A stretch of DNA of 34,569 bases from Campylobacterales bacterium. Lineage in GTDB: Bacteria; Campylobacterota; Campylobacteria; Campylobacterales; Sulfurovaceae. Position numbers and translations under genes: made by a program. Where the stretch lies: assembly GCA_024279555.1 (NCBI GenBank), contig JAJRRK010000009.1:1-34569 (forward strand), read 5' to 3'. The notes under the pieces are model-generated. The model did not search any database. It was given only the letters and a program-made list of their open reading frames with translations, and was not told where the DNA came from. This document shows positions 9,429-31,166 of this stretch, piece after piece (the first letter of the stretch is position 1; each line of letters begins with the position of its first letter).

Positions 9429-10256
9429 ATGTTAATGCAAGGTAAAAAAGGGGTGGTACTTGGTATCGCCAACAAAAAATCTATCGCATACGGTATTGCA
9501 AAAGCGTGTAAAGAACAGGGTGCCGAGATGGCGATCACTTTCCTCAACGAGCGATTCGAGCAGAAGCTCGCACCCATCGCGGAAGATCTCGGATGCGGCT
9601 CAAGACTCTATCCGTGTGATGTGAGCAGACCCGAAGAGATCAAGGCACTCAGAGAGTCTTTGGAGAAAGATTTCGGTCAGATCGACTTTATTGTGCACTC
9701 CATCGCGTTCGCACCCAAAGAGGGGCTAAGCGGTCGTTTTATGAACATCTCCAAAGAGGCGTTTGATGTGGCGATGGATATCTCTGTCTACTCTCTTATA
9801 GAAGTAACCAGAGAACTCAAACCGATCATGTCTGACAAATCCTCAGTACTTACCCTCAGCTATTATGGCGGTGAGAAGTACATTCCAAACTACAACCTCA
9901 TGGGTGTTGCCAAAGCAGCCCTTGAGATGACGGTGAAGTATCTGGCAGAAGATCTCGGACGTGACGGCATCCGTGTCAATGCCATCAGTGCAGGACCCAT
10001 CAAGACACTCGCAGCAGCAGGTATCGGTGACTTTGGCTTTATGCTTAAATGGAACGCGGCACACGCACCACTAAAGAAAAATGTCACGATCGAAGAGGTA
10101 GGGAATTCGGGTATGTACCTGCTCTCAGATCTCTCTTCAGCTGTGACAGGCGAGATCCACTATGTCGACGGCGGTTACAACATCATGGGAATGCCGGCAG
10201 TCGAGTTCGACGAGAACGGTAAGCCGCACATCGCATGGAACGGAGAGTCAAAATAG
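9429..10256 (+). CDS. fabI: Enoyl-[acyl-carrier-protein] reductase (NADH)
   Basis: GKKGVVLGIANKKSIAYGIAKAC, SYYGGEKYIPNYNLMGVAKAALE, RVNAISAGPIKTLAAAGI. Start reassigned from 9297 to ATG 9429. Confidence 0.95.
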   Translation: MLMQGKKGVVLGIANKKSIAYGIAKACKEQGAEMAITFLNERFEQKLAPIAEDLGCGSRLYPCDVSRPEEIKALRESLEKDFGQIDFIVHSIAFAPKEGLSGRFMNISKEAFDVAMDISVYSLIEVTRELKPIMSDKSSVLTLSYYGGEKYIPNYNLMGVAKAALEMTVKYLAEDLGRDGIRVNAISAGPIKTLAAAGIGDFGFMLKWNAAHAPLKKNVTIEEVGNSGMYLLSDLSSAVTGEIHYVDGGYNIMGMPAVEFDENGKPHIAWNGESK

Positions 10257-25030: not shown

Positions 25031-27097
25031 CTATGAAAGGTACTTCTCTATCACTGATTTTAACTGTTCTATTGAAACAGGCTTGGTTAGGACTTCATCT
25101 GCACCGGCTTTTCGTATTCGGTCACCATGGTGCGAATCGCCGCTGAGACTAATGATTGCCAAAGATTCCATTTCATTGTTATTGATTTTCTCTTTGATGA
25201 TAGCGATAGCTTCGCTTCCGAGCATTTTAGGCATATTCTCATCAATAATCAGCATGTCGAATTTCTCTTCAGAAAGTTTCTCCAATGCAGTCTCCGCATC
25301 ATCGGCAAGCCTGACTTTCATATTCATTTTTGTGATAAGCGCATCCATGAATTTGAGGTTTATTCTGTTATCATCGACAACCAATATTTTTTTCTCTGAT
25401 AAATTTGTATCAAAGTCAATTGTTTTACCATGTTTTTCCGACTCTTGTGGATCCTTGTGTTGGAGGGCTTCATACAGCTTTTTGGTTAAGATAGGATAGG
25501 AGAGTTTGACAATGTTGCCTTTAAAGTAATTAAAAGTAATGCCAAAAGTGTCTTCTATCCAAATGACAGAACATCCTTTGTCAAGGAGTAGCTGCGTATA
25601 CTCGTAGTCATCTTCATCTATAAATAGTTTTTCTATGATGAAGATGTCACTCTTGTTGTAGTTACTGTTTTGGTAAATCTCTTTAAGGGTTCCGTTGGCG
25701 TCTTCAAGCACAACATTGAGTTGAAAACGTTTCAAATAGCGTCTTATTGTTTTTGCACGGATATCTTTTCTTTTTTTCCATCTGTAAAGACGTACGGATT
25801 TGTCAATCTTGGTCAACTCTATAAGCGGTTTTGTCTCTTCGGGTGTAATTGCAGGCAGATCAAAGGAGAATGTGCTTCCCTCTCCTTCTGTACTCTCCAC
25901 ACGAAGTCGACCGCCAAGAAGAGAGACGATCTGATAGGAAATGTTAAGTCCAAGTCCCGTTCCCCCAAAATCACGCTCTGTTGAACTGCTCTCTTGTCTG
26001 TAGGCGACAAAAATGTCTTCTAGCGCCTCTTTTTTAATCCCTATACCGGTATCGCTAACTGCAATGGTTATCACATTTTTGTTTGTGTCAAGTACAATAT
26101 CAATAAGAATACTGCCGTTTTCCGGTGTAAACTTAATAGCATTGCTCAAAAGATTTGAAAGCACCTGTTTGATGCGGTATTGATCGGATATGATTTTCTC
26201 CGGCAAGAGGGGATCAATATAGGTTGAGAGTAGAATATTTTTTTTGCGGGCAGTTTCATAAAATATTTTAACGGTATCGGCAAGTGCATCATGCAGATCG
26301 AAAGGTTTTTTCTCTATGGGAAGCTCACCGCTTTCAATCTTGGCGACATCGAGGGCATCATTAATAAGCCGTACCATGTGTTCACCGCTTTTGAGTGCGG
26401 AATGAAGGTACTCTTTTTTGGTTATATCCGTTTCATTAAGTGCTAAAAGATCCAAAAATCCGATAAGTGCATTCATCGGTGTTCTTACATCATGAATAAT
26501 ACTATGGAAATACTGTTTATCTCTGGCAATGGCTTTCTCTAGCGCATGAGTATTGTCCAGGCATTGTGCAAGTGTAAGTTTCTCTCTGTTCTCTACATTT
26601 GGGAAATAGGGCTTGACTCCCTCAAGAAACTTGATCAAATAGAGTATCTGTTTTTGGGAAAACTGTTTATCCGAGTTTTTCTCTATGGCCCCCCATACCA
26701 ATATATTGGGAAAAGTGGCACGTTTTTCCTTTTGTATCCAAACCGGTACAAGAACAAGCTCTTCAATCTCATGATCGGTAAGATTGTCCAATTTCTCTTT
26801 GTAGAGCAGACTATGCTCAAGATCTTTTAGCAGAAGTGGCTGTTTTTTGGTGATTACCTCTGAAAAAAGATGTTCTTCTTTCATTTGAGGCTCATAGATT
26901 CTGTCTAAAGAGAGTATATTATACCTCTTTGGCGGTTCCAATACAAGTATATAGAGATGATCCGCTTCTATGAGTATTTGAAGTTGCTCTTCTATGTAGG
27001 GGTATATGCTCTCGCTCTCTAATGATTTAACAGTTTCTACACTTTCAAGAACAAATTCTTTAAATTTTGCAATAGAAGGTTGTTTGGGAGAAGTCAT
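25031..27097 (-). CDS. Hybrid sensor histidine kinase/response regulator (GAF-like, HisKA, HATPase_c, degenerate receiver, receiver)
   Basis: HDVRTPMNALIGF (H-box), LLSNAIKFTPENG (N), VSDTGIGI (G1), GGTGLGLNIS (G2), KILVVDDNRINLKFMD...MLIIDENMP...LTKPVS receiver. Confidence 0.93.
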   Translation of the reverse strand: MTSPKQPSIAKFKEFVLESVETVKSLESESIYPYIEEQLQILIEADHLYILVLEPPKRYNILSLDRIYEPQMKEEHLFSEVITKKQPLLLKDLEHSLLYKEKLDNLTDHEIEELVLVPVWIQKEKRATFPNILVWGAIEKNSDKQFSQKQILYLIKFLEGVKPYFPNVENREKLTLAQCLDNTHALEKAIARDKQYFHSIIHDVRTPMNALIGFLDLLALNETDITKKEYLHSALKSGEHMVRLINDALDVAKIESGELPIEKKPFDLHDALADTVKIFYETARKKNILLSTYIDPLLPEKIISDQYRIKQVLSNLLSNAIKFTPENGSILIDIVLDTNKNVITIAVSDTGIGIKKEALEDIFVAYRQESSSTERDFGGTGLGLNISYQIVSLLGGRLRVESTEGEGSTFSFDLPAITPEETKPLIELTKIDKSVRLYRWKKRKDIRAKTIRRYLKRFQLNVVLEDANGTLKEIYQNSNYNKSDIFIIEKLFIDEDDYEYTQLLLDKGCSVIWIEDTFGITFNYFKGNIVKLSYPILTKKLYEALQHKDPQESEKHGKTIDFDTNLSEKKILVVDDNRINLKFMDALITKMNMKVRLADDAETALEKLSEEKFDMLIIDENMPKMLGSEAIAIIKEKINNNEMESLAIISLSGDSHHGDRIRKAGADEVLTKPVSIEQLKSVIEKYLS

Positions 27098-28776
27098 ACT
27101 TCATCTGCCTCCATTTGTATAAATTCTTCAAGTGCATCAAGACAAGGCTGATTTTGATCTATCTGCATATCTACCACACTGTAGTCATAAAAGTTTATGG
27201 AATCATCTTCTTGGCATCCATTCATCACTGTCAGGATGCAATATGGTTTTTGTTGTAGTTTATTTTTGAAAAGTTCATCTGAAAACCGGGATTGAAATAC
27301 AATGAGATGCGTAATATCATCTTTAAAAAGTTCCAATTTCTCAGCACCACTAAGTTGCGATTTGGATATTCCCATCGATACTAAATATCTGGCAATATTG
27401 TTAGCCGCATCCATATCTTCTTTTTTGTTTAGGAGCAGTCCTACTTTTATAGTCTTGTCCGATATTGAAGTCACAATAGCTTCATTACTCTCTTTTTCAT
27501 ATGGAATAGAAAGAGAGAAAAGAGCCTGTTTCTTATCTGTATCTACAGAAGAGGCAATACTTCCTCCTGTCTGTATAAACTTGCTGTAGGAGAGATATAG
27601 CGCATCATCAGGTTTCTCTTTTGTATCGCGAAAGAGTGTACGGTGCAGATCCATATGCTCCTCTTTAATAGCATATAAAATACGAAAAATAAGAGAAGAA
27701 GGTTTTTTGGGATGAAGTGTTAGACGTATTTCAAAAGGCAAAGAATTATGCGTATATTGTAATGCAAATTGAAGAAGTTCCGAAATGAAAATATATGTAT
27801 TTTGTCTATCGATGCTTATTTTGGAAGGCAATCTCGCATCTAGGAAAAAAAGCATGGAGATGTTTTGGTAACAGACAAGTTCTTTCATGGTAGTGGCAAA
27901 ATGCTCGAAAAACGGCTTTGTTTCTACACTTGCTTTACTTTTGAAAAGTTCATCGATAACATTATTCGATGTGGTAAATTGGAAAGTATGCAAAAGATGC
28001 TCACTGAGTTGCCTCATAAGCTCTTCTATATGCAAAATATGTGGCATATTCTTATCGTTATGGTGTGTCTGCTGCTTGATTTGCGCAATAATATTTTTGG
28101 TGTTCTCAAGAGTAGTATTGGTCCCCATGAGAATATTGATGAGTGTTGCAATGATCTCTTGAGGTGTCTTGAAAATTTGCTCATTTTCCTTAATGCGATT
28201 AATGACAGCATTTTTTTGCATCTCTGTCTGTTCCGCAAGTTTTTTGGCGGCAAGAAGGAGTATTGTTTCTATAGATTGCAAAAAAGCCATATCGTCCTTT
28301 TTGAAAGAACGGTGTATCTTAATACTTTTGACTCGTGTTGTCGCGCCTATCATCTGGCTTCCGACAATCAAGGGTTCAATAACTTCTTCCTTTTCGTTTT
28401 CATATACTTTCCAAAGTGAGAGCACAATATCGTAACGTTCATCTTTGTTAAGAATGGGAAAAAGCAGGAGTGAACTTACATCTTTTTCATGATTACAGTC
28501 TATACTCTGGTTGCATAAAGTTTGGGACATCGGTTCATCGATAATCTCTTGCTGTTTTGTTTCAAATGTTTTTTGAACAAAGCTCTCTGGAAGCATAAGC
28601 ATATCTTGCCACTGTAAATCTTCAGGCATCAAAATATACTTTTCTGATTTCTTGTCATGCACAATCATTGACATACCGTCAACATTGCACTCTGTCTGGA
28701 CAATCCCTTTTATAAAGTGAAAAACCTCTTCGTAATCAGTCAGGTTTTCGAGTTCGGTTAAAAATTGTTCTTGCAT
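27094..28776 (-). CDS. GAF-like plus degenerate histidine-kinase-like protein (predicted pseudokinase)
   Basis: VETKPFFEHFATTMKEL..NISMLFFLDARLPSKISIDRQNTYIFISELLQFALQYT aligns by eye with the neighbouring HK segment IEKKPFDLHDALADTV..NILLSTYIDPLLPEKIISDQYRIKQVLSNLLSNAIKFT but lacks the H-box His, N-box Asn and DxGxG. Confidence 0.7.
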   Translation of the reverse strand: MQEQFLTELENLTDYEEVFHFIKGIVQTECNVDGMSMIVHDKKSEKYILMPEDLQWQDMLMLPESFVQKTFETKQQEIIDEPMSQTLCNQSIDCNHEKDVSSLLLFPILNKDERYDIVLSLWKVYENEKEEVIEPLIVGSQMIGATTRVKSIKIHRSFKKDDMAFLQSIETILLLAAKKLAEQTEMQKNAVINRIKENEQIFKTPQEIIATLINILMGTNTTLENTKNIIAQIKQQTHHNDKNMPHILHIEELMRQLSEHLLHTFQFTTSNNVIDELFKSKASVETKPFFEHFATTMKELVCYQNISMLFFLDARLPSKISIDRQNTYIFISELLQFALQYTHNSLPFEIRLTLHPKKPSSLIFRILYAIKEEHMDLHRTLFRDTKEKPDDALYLSYSKFIQTGGSIASSVDTDKKQALFSLSIPYEKESNEAIVTSISDKTIKVGLLLNKKEDMDAANNIARYLVSMGISKSQLSGAEKLELFKDDITHLIVFQSRFSDELFKNKLQQKPYCILTVMNGCQEDDSINFYDYSVVDMQIDQNQPCLDALEEFIQMEADEV

Positions 28777-28787
28777 GCAATATCTCC

Positions 28788-29423
28788 TTAGTTGTTACCG
28801 TTGAATAGCTTTTTCATCTTATTGACAGCTGCTTCTAGTATGCTGCTTTTTTCTTCTGTACCCATATTCTCTTCTGTCGTTATTGCCTCTTTGTTTGGGA
28901 GGGATTGTTTGGTTTCACTTGTTCCGTAGTGTACTTCAAGGAAATGTGGAAGTACTTGATCCAAAGTGGCAATATCTTCTTGGGAAAATTGTTCCGGGGG
29001 GACATCGACTGTGGCTTGTTTCACTGTAACTCCAATGGTTCTATCGCCTGATTTCAGAGGGACTATCTGCTCTTGCGTTGTTGTGTATCCCTCTTTCCCA
29101 ATGCCGATGATCATTCCCACATGGCTATCATTGTATTTGACCGGATAGTACAAAGCAGCATATATGTTTTCACAGTAACTGTCATATTTAGGATTGAAGC
29201 GCTCATCCTTCTTGATATTGTTGATGTAAAATGGGGTACGGTTTTGCCATGCATAACGGGCTAGTCCTCTTTTGGGAATTTGCTGTTTTATGAAAAATAG
29301 TGTTTTTTCTGCATTAATCAATCGTTTCAGTACATACAATATATAGTCTATACGCTCGTTTTCTTTTTGAATGGTCTGTACGGTATTGAGAGACTTGATT
29401 AAAATACTTTCATTTTTGTTCAT
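28788..29423 (-). CDS. GAF-like domain protein
   Basis: VLKRLINAEKTLFFI...GLARYAWQNRTPFYINNIKKDERFNPKYDSYCENIYAALYYPVKYNDSHVGMIIG, GAF-like pattern. Confidence 0.65.
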   Translation of the reverse strand: MNKNESILIKSLNTVQTIQKENERIDYILYVLKRLINAEKTLFFIKQQIPKRGLARYAWQNRTPFYINNIKKDERFNPKYDSYCENIYAALYYPVKYNDSHVGMIIGIGKEGYTTTQEQIVPLKSGDRTIGVTVKQATVDVPPEQFSQEDIATLDQVLPHFLEVHYGTSETKQSLPNKEAITTEENMGTEEKSSILEAAVNKMKKLFNGNN

Positions 29424-29535
29424 CAGAACTCTTTTAGATTAATTAATATTATAATATTTCAACGCTATATCTATTATAGTACTCAAGTATTATAAATGAC
29501 AACGGCACATGATGCGTACCGTTGTACGGAGGCGA

Positions 29536-29745
29536 TTATGCCTCTTGCTTGTGCATATTGCGGATCAATCCGTTGATGAACCCAAGCATTTGTGGTGTGA
29601 CCCCTTTAAGATCTTCGTTGGTTACATCCATTTGTGCCAAAATACCCATAACATCTTTATAGAACTCTGCAGGTTCGATCTCTTTTTTCTTCATCTGTTC
29701 GATGAAGCCGTCTAATTGCTCTTGAATCATTGCGATATCCCTCAT
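29536..29745 (-). CDS. Small 69-aa protein, cassette B (paralogue of 30468-30674)
   Basis: MRDIAMIQEQLDGFIEQMKKKEIEPAEFYKDVMGILAQMDVTNEDLKGVTPQMLGFINGLIRNMHKQEA; RBS-like AGGAG; conserved between copies. Confidence 0.8.
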   Translation of the reverse strand: MRDIAMIQEQLDGFIEQMKKKEIEPAEFYKDVMGILAQMDVTNEDLKGVTPQMLGFINGLIRNMHKQEA

Positions 29746-29781
29746 ACCATACTCCTATTTTCATATAAATGTTTTCAACCA

Positions 29782-29828
29782 AAAGACCATACACGGTCTT
29801 TCACCTGAAGATGAACTGCGCATCTTCA
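29782..29828 (-). other. Conserved double-hairpin spacer, cassette B
   Basis: AAAGACC-ATACAC-GGTCTTT (29782-29801) and TGAAGATG-AACTGCG-CATCTTCA (29806-29828), between roadblock stop and small-protein start. Confidence 0.8.
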
Positions 29829-29859
29829 TATAAACCGACAGTTTTGTGTTGCAATGCTC

Positions 29860-30237
29860 TTAGAGATCCTGCAGCTTTTTGACAAATGTTTTCAGTGCGA
29901 CAAGCAGACCGCCCATTTTGTAGTTTGCCGGTGCCAGTACACCCAGTGCAATATCTTCACCAAGATCTTTAATGGCAATAAAACCGCCTTCAGCAGTAAT
30001 GATCATGTTGTCGAACTTCTTCTTCTCTGTATTCTCAAGGATACCCGCAGTAACAGACAAAAGTGATGCCGCATCTGATGCAATGAGGTCACTGTCGAGC
30101 GTTTTATCGGTAATGGCGCTTGCCAGCTCCAAACCTTCCGCTGTTGCAAGAACCGCGCCTTGAAGTCCTGCCGCATTGACAAACTCTTTTAAAAGTCCGT
30201 CTCCCTCTGTTCCCAATTTCAATGAATCTATAGCCAT
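29860..30237 (-). CDS. Roadblock/LC7-domain protein, cassette B
   Basis: LLKEFVNAAGLQGAVLATAEGLELASAI...LSVTAGILENTEKKKFDNMIITAEGGFIAIKDLGEDIALGVLAP. Confidence 0.85.
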   Translation of the reverse strand: MAIDSLKLGTEGDGLLKEFVNAAGLQGAVLATAEGLELASAITDKTLDSDLIASDAASLLSVTAGILENTEKKKFDNMIITAEGGFIAIKDLGEDIALGVLAPANYKMGGLLVALKTFVKKLQDL

Positions 30238-30343
30238 GTTGTAGCTCCTTAGTATAATTTTAAGTTCACTCTCCTAATAGAGCAGATCAAACTCAACTGC
30301 TATGATAACTGAAAAATATTTAAAAATCATCGTATGTTATATT

Positions 30344-30365
30344 TTTATTACATTTTTGTAATAAA
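30344..30365. promoter_or_regulatory. AT-rich inverted repeat upstream of roadblock cassette B
   Basis: TTTATTAC-ATTTTT-GTAATAAA, perfect 8-bp arms. Confidence 0.4.
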
Positions 30366-30426
30366 TTACAAAATCAAAAAAGTGGAGTATATCAGAAAGT
30401 TGTATTAGACAAGTAGTAGTAAAATG

Positions 30427-30454
30427 ACCCATGCCAAGCAGTCTTGGTATGGGT
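30427..30454 (-). terminator. Candidate terminator after cassette A
   Basis: ACCCATGCCAAG-CAGT-CTTGGTATGGGT, 12-bp stem with one G-T pair, just downstream of the small-protein stop. Confidence 0.6.
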
Positions 30455-30467
30455 ATATATTGTGTTT

Positions 30468-30674
30468 TTAAATCTGTTTTTTCATATTGCGGATCAAACC
30501 ATTGAGAAAGCCAAGCAGTTGCGGCATGACCCCCTGAAGATCTTCATTGGTCACATCCATTTGTGCCAAAATGCCCATGACACCTTTGTAAAACTCTGTT
30601 GGCTCTATCTCTCTTTTTTTCATCTGATCGATAAATCCGTCCAATTGTTCTTGGATTTGTGCAATGTCTCTCAT
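30468..30674 (-). CDS. Small 68-aa protein, cassette A (paralogue of 29536-29745)
   Basis: MRDIAQIQEQLDGFIDQMKKREIEPTEFYKGVMGILAQMDVTNEDLQGVMPQLLGFLNGLIRNMKKQI. Confidence 0.8.
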   Translation of the reverse strand: MRDIAQIQEQLDGFIDQMKKREIEPTEFYKGVMGILAQMDVTNEDLQGVMPQLLGFLNGLIRNMKKQI

Positions 30675-30710
30675 GTAATGTTCCTTTTTTTATATAAATG
30701 TTTTCAACCA

Positions 30711-30757
30711 AAAGACCATACACGGTCTTTCACCTGAAGATGAACTGCGCATCTTCA
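30711..30757 (-). other. Conserved double-hairpin spacer, cassette A
   Basis: Same two hairpins (30711-30730 and 30735-30757); identical to cassette B. Confidence 0.8.
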
Positions 30758-30788
30758 TATAAACCGACAGTTTTGCGTTGCAATGCTC

Positions 30789-31166
30789 TTAGAGATCCTG
30801 AAGCTTTTTGACAAATGTTTTCAGTGCAACAAGCAGACCACCCATTTTGTAGTTTGCCGGCGCCAAAACACCCAGTGCAATGTCTTCACCAAGATCTTTA
30901 ATGGCAATAAAACCGCCTTCAGCAGTAATGATCATGTTATCGAACTTGTTCTTCTCTGTATTCTCAAGGATACCCGCAGTAACGGACAAAAGCGATGCCG
31001 CATCTGATGCAATGAGGTCACTGTCGAGCGTTTTATCGGTAATGGCGCTTGCCAGCTCCAAACCTTCCGCTGTTGCAAGAACCGCACCTTGAAGTCCTGC
31101 TGAGTTGACAAACTCTTTTAAAAGTCCGTCTCCCTCTGTTCCCAATTTCAATGAATCTATAGCCAT
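30789..31166 (-). CDS. Roadblock/LC7-domain protein, cassette A
   Basis: Differs from cassette B at only two of 125 residues (A/S and K/N); start reassigned from 31223 to MAIDSLKLG at 31166. Confidence 0.85.
   Translation of the reverse strand: MAIDSLKLGTEGDGLLKEFVNSAGLQGAVLATAEGLELASAITDKTLDSDLIASDAASLLSVTAGILENTEKNKFDNMIITAEGGFIAIKDLGEDIALGVLAPANYKMGGLLVALKTFVKKLQDL

Follow-up and report, generated by a model that had tools for sequence, protein, structure and literature searches.

Described roadblock systems and the locus

What is understood of roadblock/LC7 (Robl_LC7) proteins mostly concerns their role as small-GTPase partners. The locus described here comprises seven genes at positions 25031–31166 of a 34,569-nucleotide stretch of DNA (the window, i.e. 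the whole stretch that was analysed) from a Sulfurovum-like bacterium, and encodes two roadblock proteins together with small proteins and histidine kinase-type proteins. Its best reading is an orphan-MglB, conservon-like system. With a probability of about 0.6, the locus represents a form, specific to this genome, of a cassette of roadblock protein, small protein and hybrid histidine kinase that moves horizontally and in which a GTPase-independent scaffold would control the kinase.

Among described systems, conservons (AGPS; CvnA–D with the accessory CvnF) likewise encode a histidine kinase next to a roadblock protein and a functionally uncharacterised small protein. The roadblock profile of the cassette matched CvnB5, and the GAF accessory protein of the window parallels CvnF8. 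This conservon accessory protein, likewise with a GAF domain, binds the kinase CvnA8 and stimulates its autophosphorylation, a precedent for the activation by a GAF protein of a kinase whose gene neighbours a roadblock gene (PMC13343842). In contrast to conservons, the cassette lacks the CvnD GTPase, which was also absent in free-standing form from three cassette-bearing genomes (G060, G178 and G135), and contains no match to CvnC. The small protein and the two proteins of about 110 and 220 aa that accompany it in most genomes belong to no Pfam family. The cassette kinase is a soluble hybrid kinase with receiver domains, no C-terminal LPxR was present in that of the window, the common form of the cassette has extra roadblock-like proteins, and the phylum is a different one. 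The cassette resembles a conservon minus its GTPase, lacks the defining features of conservons and ought not to be classified among them.

The MglA-MglB-MglC/RomR polarity module likewise combines several roadblock proteins (MglB and MglC) with a receiver-domain partner, whereas the cassette has no MglA in the locus, its partner is a histidine kinase, and no counterpart of the small protein was found in that module. Ragulator/LAMTOR is a scaffold of several different roadblock-fold subunits, a composition that the common cassette may match with one clear, one modelled and one possible roadblock; it is eukaryotic and acts on Rag GTPases, and the likeness is one of fold and design only. A published census listed 328 orphan MglB homologues, none of which had been experimentally characterised as of 2014 (PMC4316618). 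In these the roadblock gene is likewise uncoupled from a GTPase gene, and the cassette group differs in being tied to a defined transferable kinase unit.

The conserved cassette and its transfer

An earlier note on this DNA had suggested a comparison of gene neighbourhoods across Campylobacterota. In 398 genomes of the phylum, searched with a small-protein profile and with Robl_LC7, strong matches to the small protein were found in six genomes, and Robl_LC7 occurred in precisely these six and in no others. The small protein was present in 9 of 78 genomes of the genus, and a search of 60 relatives showed rob in five other genus members; a contig scan that needed near-exact peptides recovered only two loci. 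Besides the window, 13 loci were read, of which 10 were complete (G024, G009, G006, G359, G454, which is also JALWHT010000093, G464, G461, G178, G135 and JALWZI010000141) and three were interrupted by contig ends (G060, G015 and G002).

All 10 complete cassettes outside the window showed a hybrid kinase beside the rob-small pair, and nine of them had the gene order rob, small, ~110 aa, ~220 aa, hybrid kinase. The most distant locus, G135, had two small genes and no 110-aa gene, and its kinase gene faced the other genes. The tandem small genes of this locus (L062, contig C78, 8468–8881), which lie downstream of one roadblock gene, are an independent small-protein duplication. The small protein was kept in every cassette. 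None of the 11 complete cassettes (that of the window and the 10 others) encodes a GTPase, and no roadblock gene in them is coupled to a gene for a GTPase of MglA type. The conserved core is a roadblock protein, the small protein and a soluble hybrid histidine kinase, without a GTPase. Roadblock/small pairs consistently occurring without kinases, which the earlier note had named as evidence against its proposal, were looked for and not found. Its association of the two proteins with a pair of kinases held for one kinase, present at all 10 loci, and not for the pair, which is specific to the window. In the conserved unit there is a single kinase with two further proteins, of which at least one looks, by its model, like another roadblock.

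Comparison of G359 with G461 indicated that the five genes had recently been transferred as one unit, because a cassette stretch of 3,872 bp was 94.8% identical while hemL was 75.5% identical and the flanks did not match. The match extended from about 90 nt before rob to 10 nt after the kinase stop, and these borders define the cassette unit better than gene order alone. A higher AT content in the cassette than in its flanks was observed at all 11 loci, the outer neighbours differed between most genomes, and at least nine gains or losses were required on the hemL tree. Three relatives, G464, G016 and G022, have no insert at the site of the window cassette: only 68–258 bp lie between their cytochrome c and SpoU genes, compared with 6.35 kb in the window. 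In G458 (L128, contig C87, 3893–4066), a 38-codon remnant of the C-terminus of the cassette kinase was found beside a TonB-like gene. This remnant is the scar of a cassette loss; in the sister genome G454 the cassette occupies this position. Transposase-like reading frames, one of them IS200-like by eye, were also observed directly upstream of rob in G009 (L010, contig C43, 9259–10149).

Neither the 110-aa nor the 220-aa family gave a Pfam match above cut-off. An AlphaFold2 model of the 110-aa protein, built from two sequences, showed helices and strands alternating in a roadblock-like order. Its top 16 matches in the PDB were all of roadblock type (MglB, MglC, CvnB5, archaeal roadblocks and Rag/Gtr chains containing a roadblock), the best of them including archaeal Roadblock3, Ragulator and the roadblock ends of Rag/Gtr GTPases, with template modelling (TM) scores of about 0.5–0.6 and Foldseek probabilities of up to 0.98. 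In profile comparisons the 110-aa family resembled the 220-aa family in the C-terminal half of the latter (82.9%, E 9e-6) and rob only weakly (14.8%); earlier comparisons with profiles built from few sequences had given no signal. The 110-aa protein is, on the strength of the model, a probable second roadblock of the common cassette, and the 220-aa protein a possible third.

The variant in the window

The seven genes listed by the earlier note were all present, and all lie on the minus strand. The roadblock proteins RobA (30789..31166; Robl_LC7 E 3.7e-10) and RobB (29860..30237; E 2e-9) each have 125 aa and share 98% identity. Their scores of 40 and 37 bits (curated cut-off 23) place them in the Robl_LC7 superfamily, and the family profile matched the solved roadblocks 9jue, 7f8m and CvnB5 (3leq). 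Small protein A (smA, 30468..30674, 68 aa) is predicted to be soluble and falls in no known family; small protein B (smB, 29536..29745, 69 aa) is 84% identical to it. Pfam, NCBIfam and PADLOC gave no family above cut-off for the small protein, and weak matches to HepT and to PDB entries were rejected as short or far below cut-off. The 211-aa GAF-domain protein (28788..29423) matched GAF_2 with E 6e-6, slightly below the Pfam cut-off. It is followed by the 560-aa pseudokinase (27094..28776) and the 688-aa hybrid histidine kinase (25031..27097). No hydrophobic stretch resembling a membrane helix was found in any protein of the window locus.

This variant lacks the 110-aa and 220-aa genes, whose place is taken by another rob-small pair together with the genes of the GAF protein and the pseudokinase. 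No counterpart of the GAF protein or the pseudokinase occurred in any of the 10 complete cassettes elsewhere, and the idea that these two belong to the conserved system was rejected; the GAF protein, the pseudokinase and the duplication are peculiar to this genome.

The hybrid kinase, with Pfam matches to HisKA, HATPase_c and Response_reg, showed a GAF-like N-terminus, HisKA (H202), HATPase, a degenerate receiver and a second receiver (D619). Intact were H202, the N box, DTGIGI, GGTGLGL and the receiver residues D619/S652/K672, so that the protein qualifies as a hybrid histidine kinase by both domains and catalytic residues. Its place in the kinase tree was among the other cassette kinases (support 96/90). 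The 560-aa protein matched no Pfam family; it showed a GAF-like N-terminus, degenerate HisKA/HATPase regions and a receiver-like remnant. Alignment to 13 intact kinases revealed that it lacks the phospho-acceptor His, the N-box Asn, the G1 Asp, the GGTGLGL (G2) box and a working receiver. Owing to this loss of catalytic residues it is classed, from the alignment, as a true pseudokinase, in agreement with the earlier description of a degenerate kinase. Its closest kin were hybrid kinases of the type found on contig C74 of the same genome, at about 22–26% identity, with no close relative. In the tree it lay on the side of a hybrid kinase family different from that of the cassette kinases, on an extremely long branch (6.5 changes per column), and because of this branch its origin is unsure.

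A distance of 929 bp separates the two rob-small units. Whereas robA and robB differed at 15 of 378 bases (synonymous divergence, dS, 0.16; non-synonymous divergence, dN, 0.007) and the rob-small spacers at one of their first 90 bases, the synonymous sites of smA and smB were saturated (dS 3.3; dN 0.08). The low dN values, that of the small genes set against saturated dS, indicate that both duplicates are under purifying selection. Outside the units, the sequences around the two copies could not be aligned convincingly. We read this as an old duplication of rob-small in which rob and the spacer were homogenised later, probably through gene conversion. An assembly copy was excluded by the different flanks and the diverged small genes.

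Both spacers between rob and small gene (30675..30788 and 29746..29859, minus strand) carry the same stem-loop AAAGACC-GTGTAT-GGTCTTT (AAAGACCGTGTATGGTCTTT). In most other cassettes a different hairpin can fold in this spacer, and such hairpins perhaps set the ratio of rob to small protein. The smA gene is followed by a 230-nt spacer with a hairpin and smB by a 112-nt spacer with a hairpin, the latter terminator-like (29499..29525, minus strand). A sigma-70-like promoter (29473..29502, minus strand; 11 of 12 positions) lies upstream of the GAF gene; all hairpin and promoter calls in the window come from consensus scans only. The GAF, pseudokinase and hybrid kinase genes are tightly coupled, with an 11-nt gap followed by a 4-nt overlap. 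The spacing, the hairpins after each small gene and the promoter-like site suggest that the window genes need not form one operon and may make up as many as three transcription units.

Proposed mechanism and competing explanations

The make-up of the cassette, its constant association, its transfer as a unit, its lack of a GTPase and the state of the catalytic residues in the two kinase-type proteins are established; from the gene content we infer a physical complex of roadblock protein, small protein and kinase, together with a direction of control, phosphorelay partners and a stimulus. The roadblock protein, as an orphan MglB/Robl_LC7 superfamily member, would form dimers, which with the small protein would provide a cytosolic platform for the hybrid kinase. 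The platform and variable input subunits, i.e. the GAF protein and pseudokinase in the window and, in the majority of genomes, the 110- and 220-aa proteins, would lock the kinase on or off. The kinase would autophosphorylate at H202 and pass the phosphate to its own receiver at D619, and from there presumably to a histidine phosphotransfer (Hpt) protein and a response regulator encoded elsewhere. By analogy with CvnF8, the window GAF protein could bind the kinase and raise its autophosphorylation, and the pseudokinase might modulate the active kinase allosterically. A more specific form of this scheme, in which a transferable GTPase-independent hetero-oligomer of several roadblock-fold proteins and the small protein directly regulates a histidine kinase, with input subunits swapped between genomes, is offered tentatively, at somewhat less than even odds. 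The cassette points to a little-studied way of building a bacterial signalling hub. With an orphan roadblock tied to one kinase in a compact, soluble five-gene unit, a roadblock role without a GTPase becomes testable by reconstitution, and the window variant, in which a GAF protein and a pseudokinase substitute for the roadblock-like subunits, is a natural experiment that may tell input parts from the core.

Several observations weigh against a GTPase-independent scaffold. Within the genus, a Ras-like GTPase was encoded in 8 of 10 cassette genomes and in 6 of 31 others (Fisher p 0.001, uncorrected for relatedness), which fits a GTPase acting in trans. The confidence of the 110-aa model was moderate (pLDDT 66; Foldseek E only 0.015–0.1), and the 220-aa model was too poor to use (pLDDT 40). 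Relatives of the small protein outside the cassettes were not detectable, so that its scaffold role is a guess, and no response regulator or Hpt protein was found within the cassette.

The one free-standing Ras-family GTPase of the window genome (PF00071, E 4e-31) is encoded on contig C74, separate from the window contig. The earlier note had reported no MglA in the window and had named one just outside the locus as evidence that would count against its proposal; none was found in the window or near the locus, the C74 protein being the only free-standing Ras-like GTPase. Its cluster (L052, G000:C74, 1437–5650) comprises a coiled-coil protein, an OmpA-domain protein, the GTPase and a kinase, and the G3 motif of the GTPase reads DIEGG, i.e. 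the G3 glutamine is missing. This arrangement, including the missing glutamine, defines Group 1 Rup systems, whose output component is a kinase or cyclase, according to Wuichet and Sogaard-Andersen (PMC4316618). It is found in the C74 cluster and not in the window cassette, and by its sequence the cluster is a self-contained Group 1 Rup system. Like the cassette, it is linked to a histidine kinase, and the nearest kin of the pseudokinase is a kinase near the C74 cluster; it differs in forming a separate locus with its own components, where no Robl_LC7 match was found, and the cassette also occurs without Rup. Two Rup-type GTPases adjacent to each other were observed in G009.

The roadblock proteins might regulate this GTPase as a GTPase-activating protein or guanine nucleotide exchange factor, as MglB does for MglA, with the kinase downstream or in parallel. 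The presence of a true Ras-family GTPase and its co-occurrence with the cassette speak for such a role, but in a phylogeny-aware test on the hemL tree the association was not significant (median p 0.25, with too few informative pairs), and in the published census no Rup GTPase was coupled to MglB (PMC4316618). Moreover, in G060, G178 and G135, which are 99–100% complete and bear the cassette, neither PF00025 nor comparison with the C74 GTPase revealed an Arf/Ras-like GTPase in free-standing form. Since these genomes have kept the cassette, a GTPase partner is not required for its retention; a GTPase may still act as a partner where both are present, but regulation in trans is judged unlikely. 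The cassette could also be a mobile conflict or defence system directed at phages or competitors rather than an environmental sensor, and its patchy occurrence, repeated state changes, AT-richness, recent transfer and the G458 deletion scar would all suit such a role. However, no toxin, nuclease or other effector is encoded in it, PADLOC gave only generic kinase/receiver similarity for the hybrid kinase, with no specific anti-phage component and nothing for the other proteins, and the searches made revealed no plasmid match for rob and no phage or plasmid match for the small protein. A defence role is judged improbable.

Decay of the window variant, with the pseudokinase a dying gene and the duplication mere noise, could account for the extreme branch of the pseudokinase and its want of close relatives. 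It has an equally low standing with us, as the 560-codon frame is uninterrupted and overlaps the intact hybrid kinase gene, the catalytic motifs were lost without any stop codon, and the duplicates show the low dN of purifying selection. That rob, small protein and kinase are adjacent merely by chance has nothing in its favour and a negligible probability, their association being kept in all 10 complete loci while the outer neighbours are mostly different.

Beside the Rup cluster, at positions 9689–17531 of L052, a GAF hybrid kinase was found to which the pseudokinase is most closely related. The same region encodes a 129-aa protein that matches no Pfam family but is roadblock-like by eye, receiver proteins and one protein similar to the Hpt-like protein of L053; the proteins of this region are candidate phosphorelay partners.

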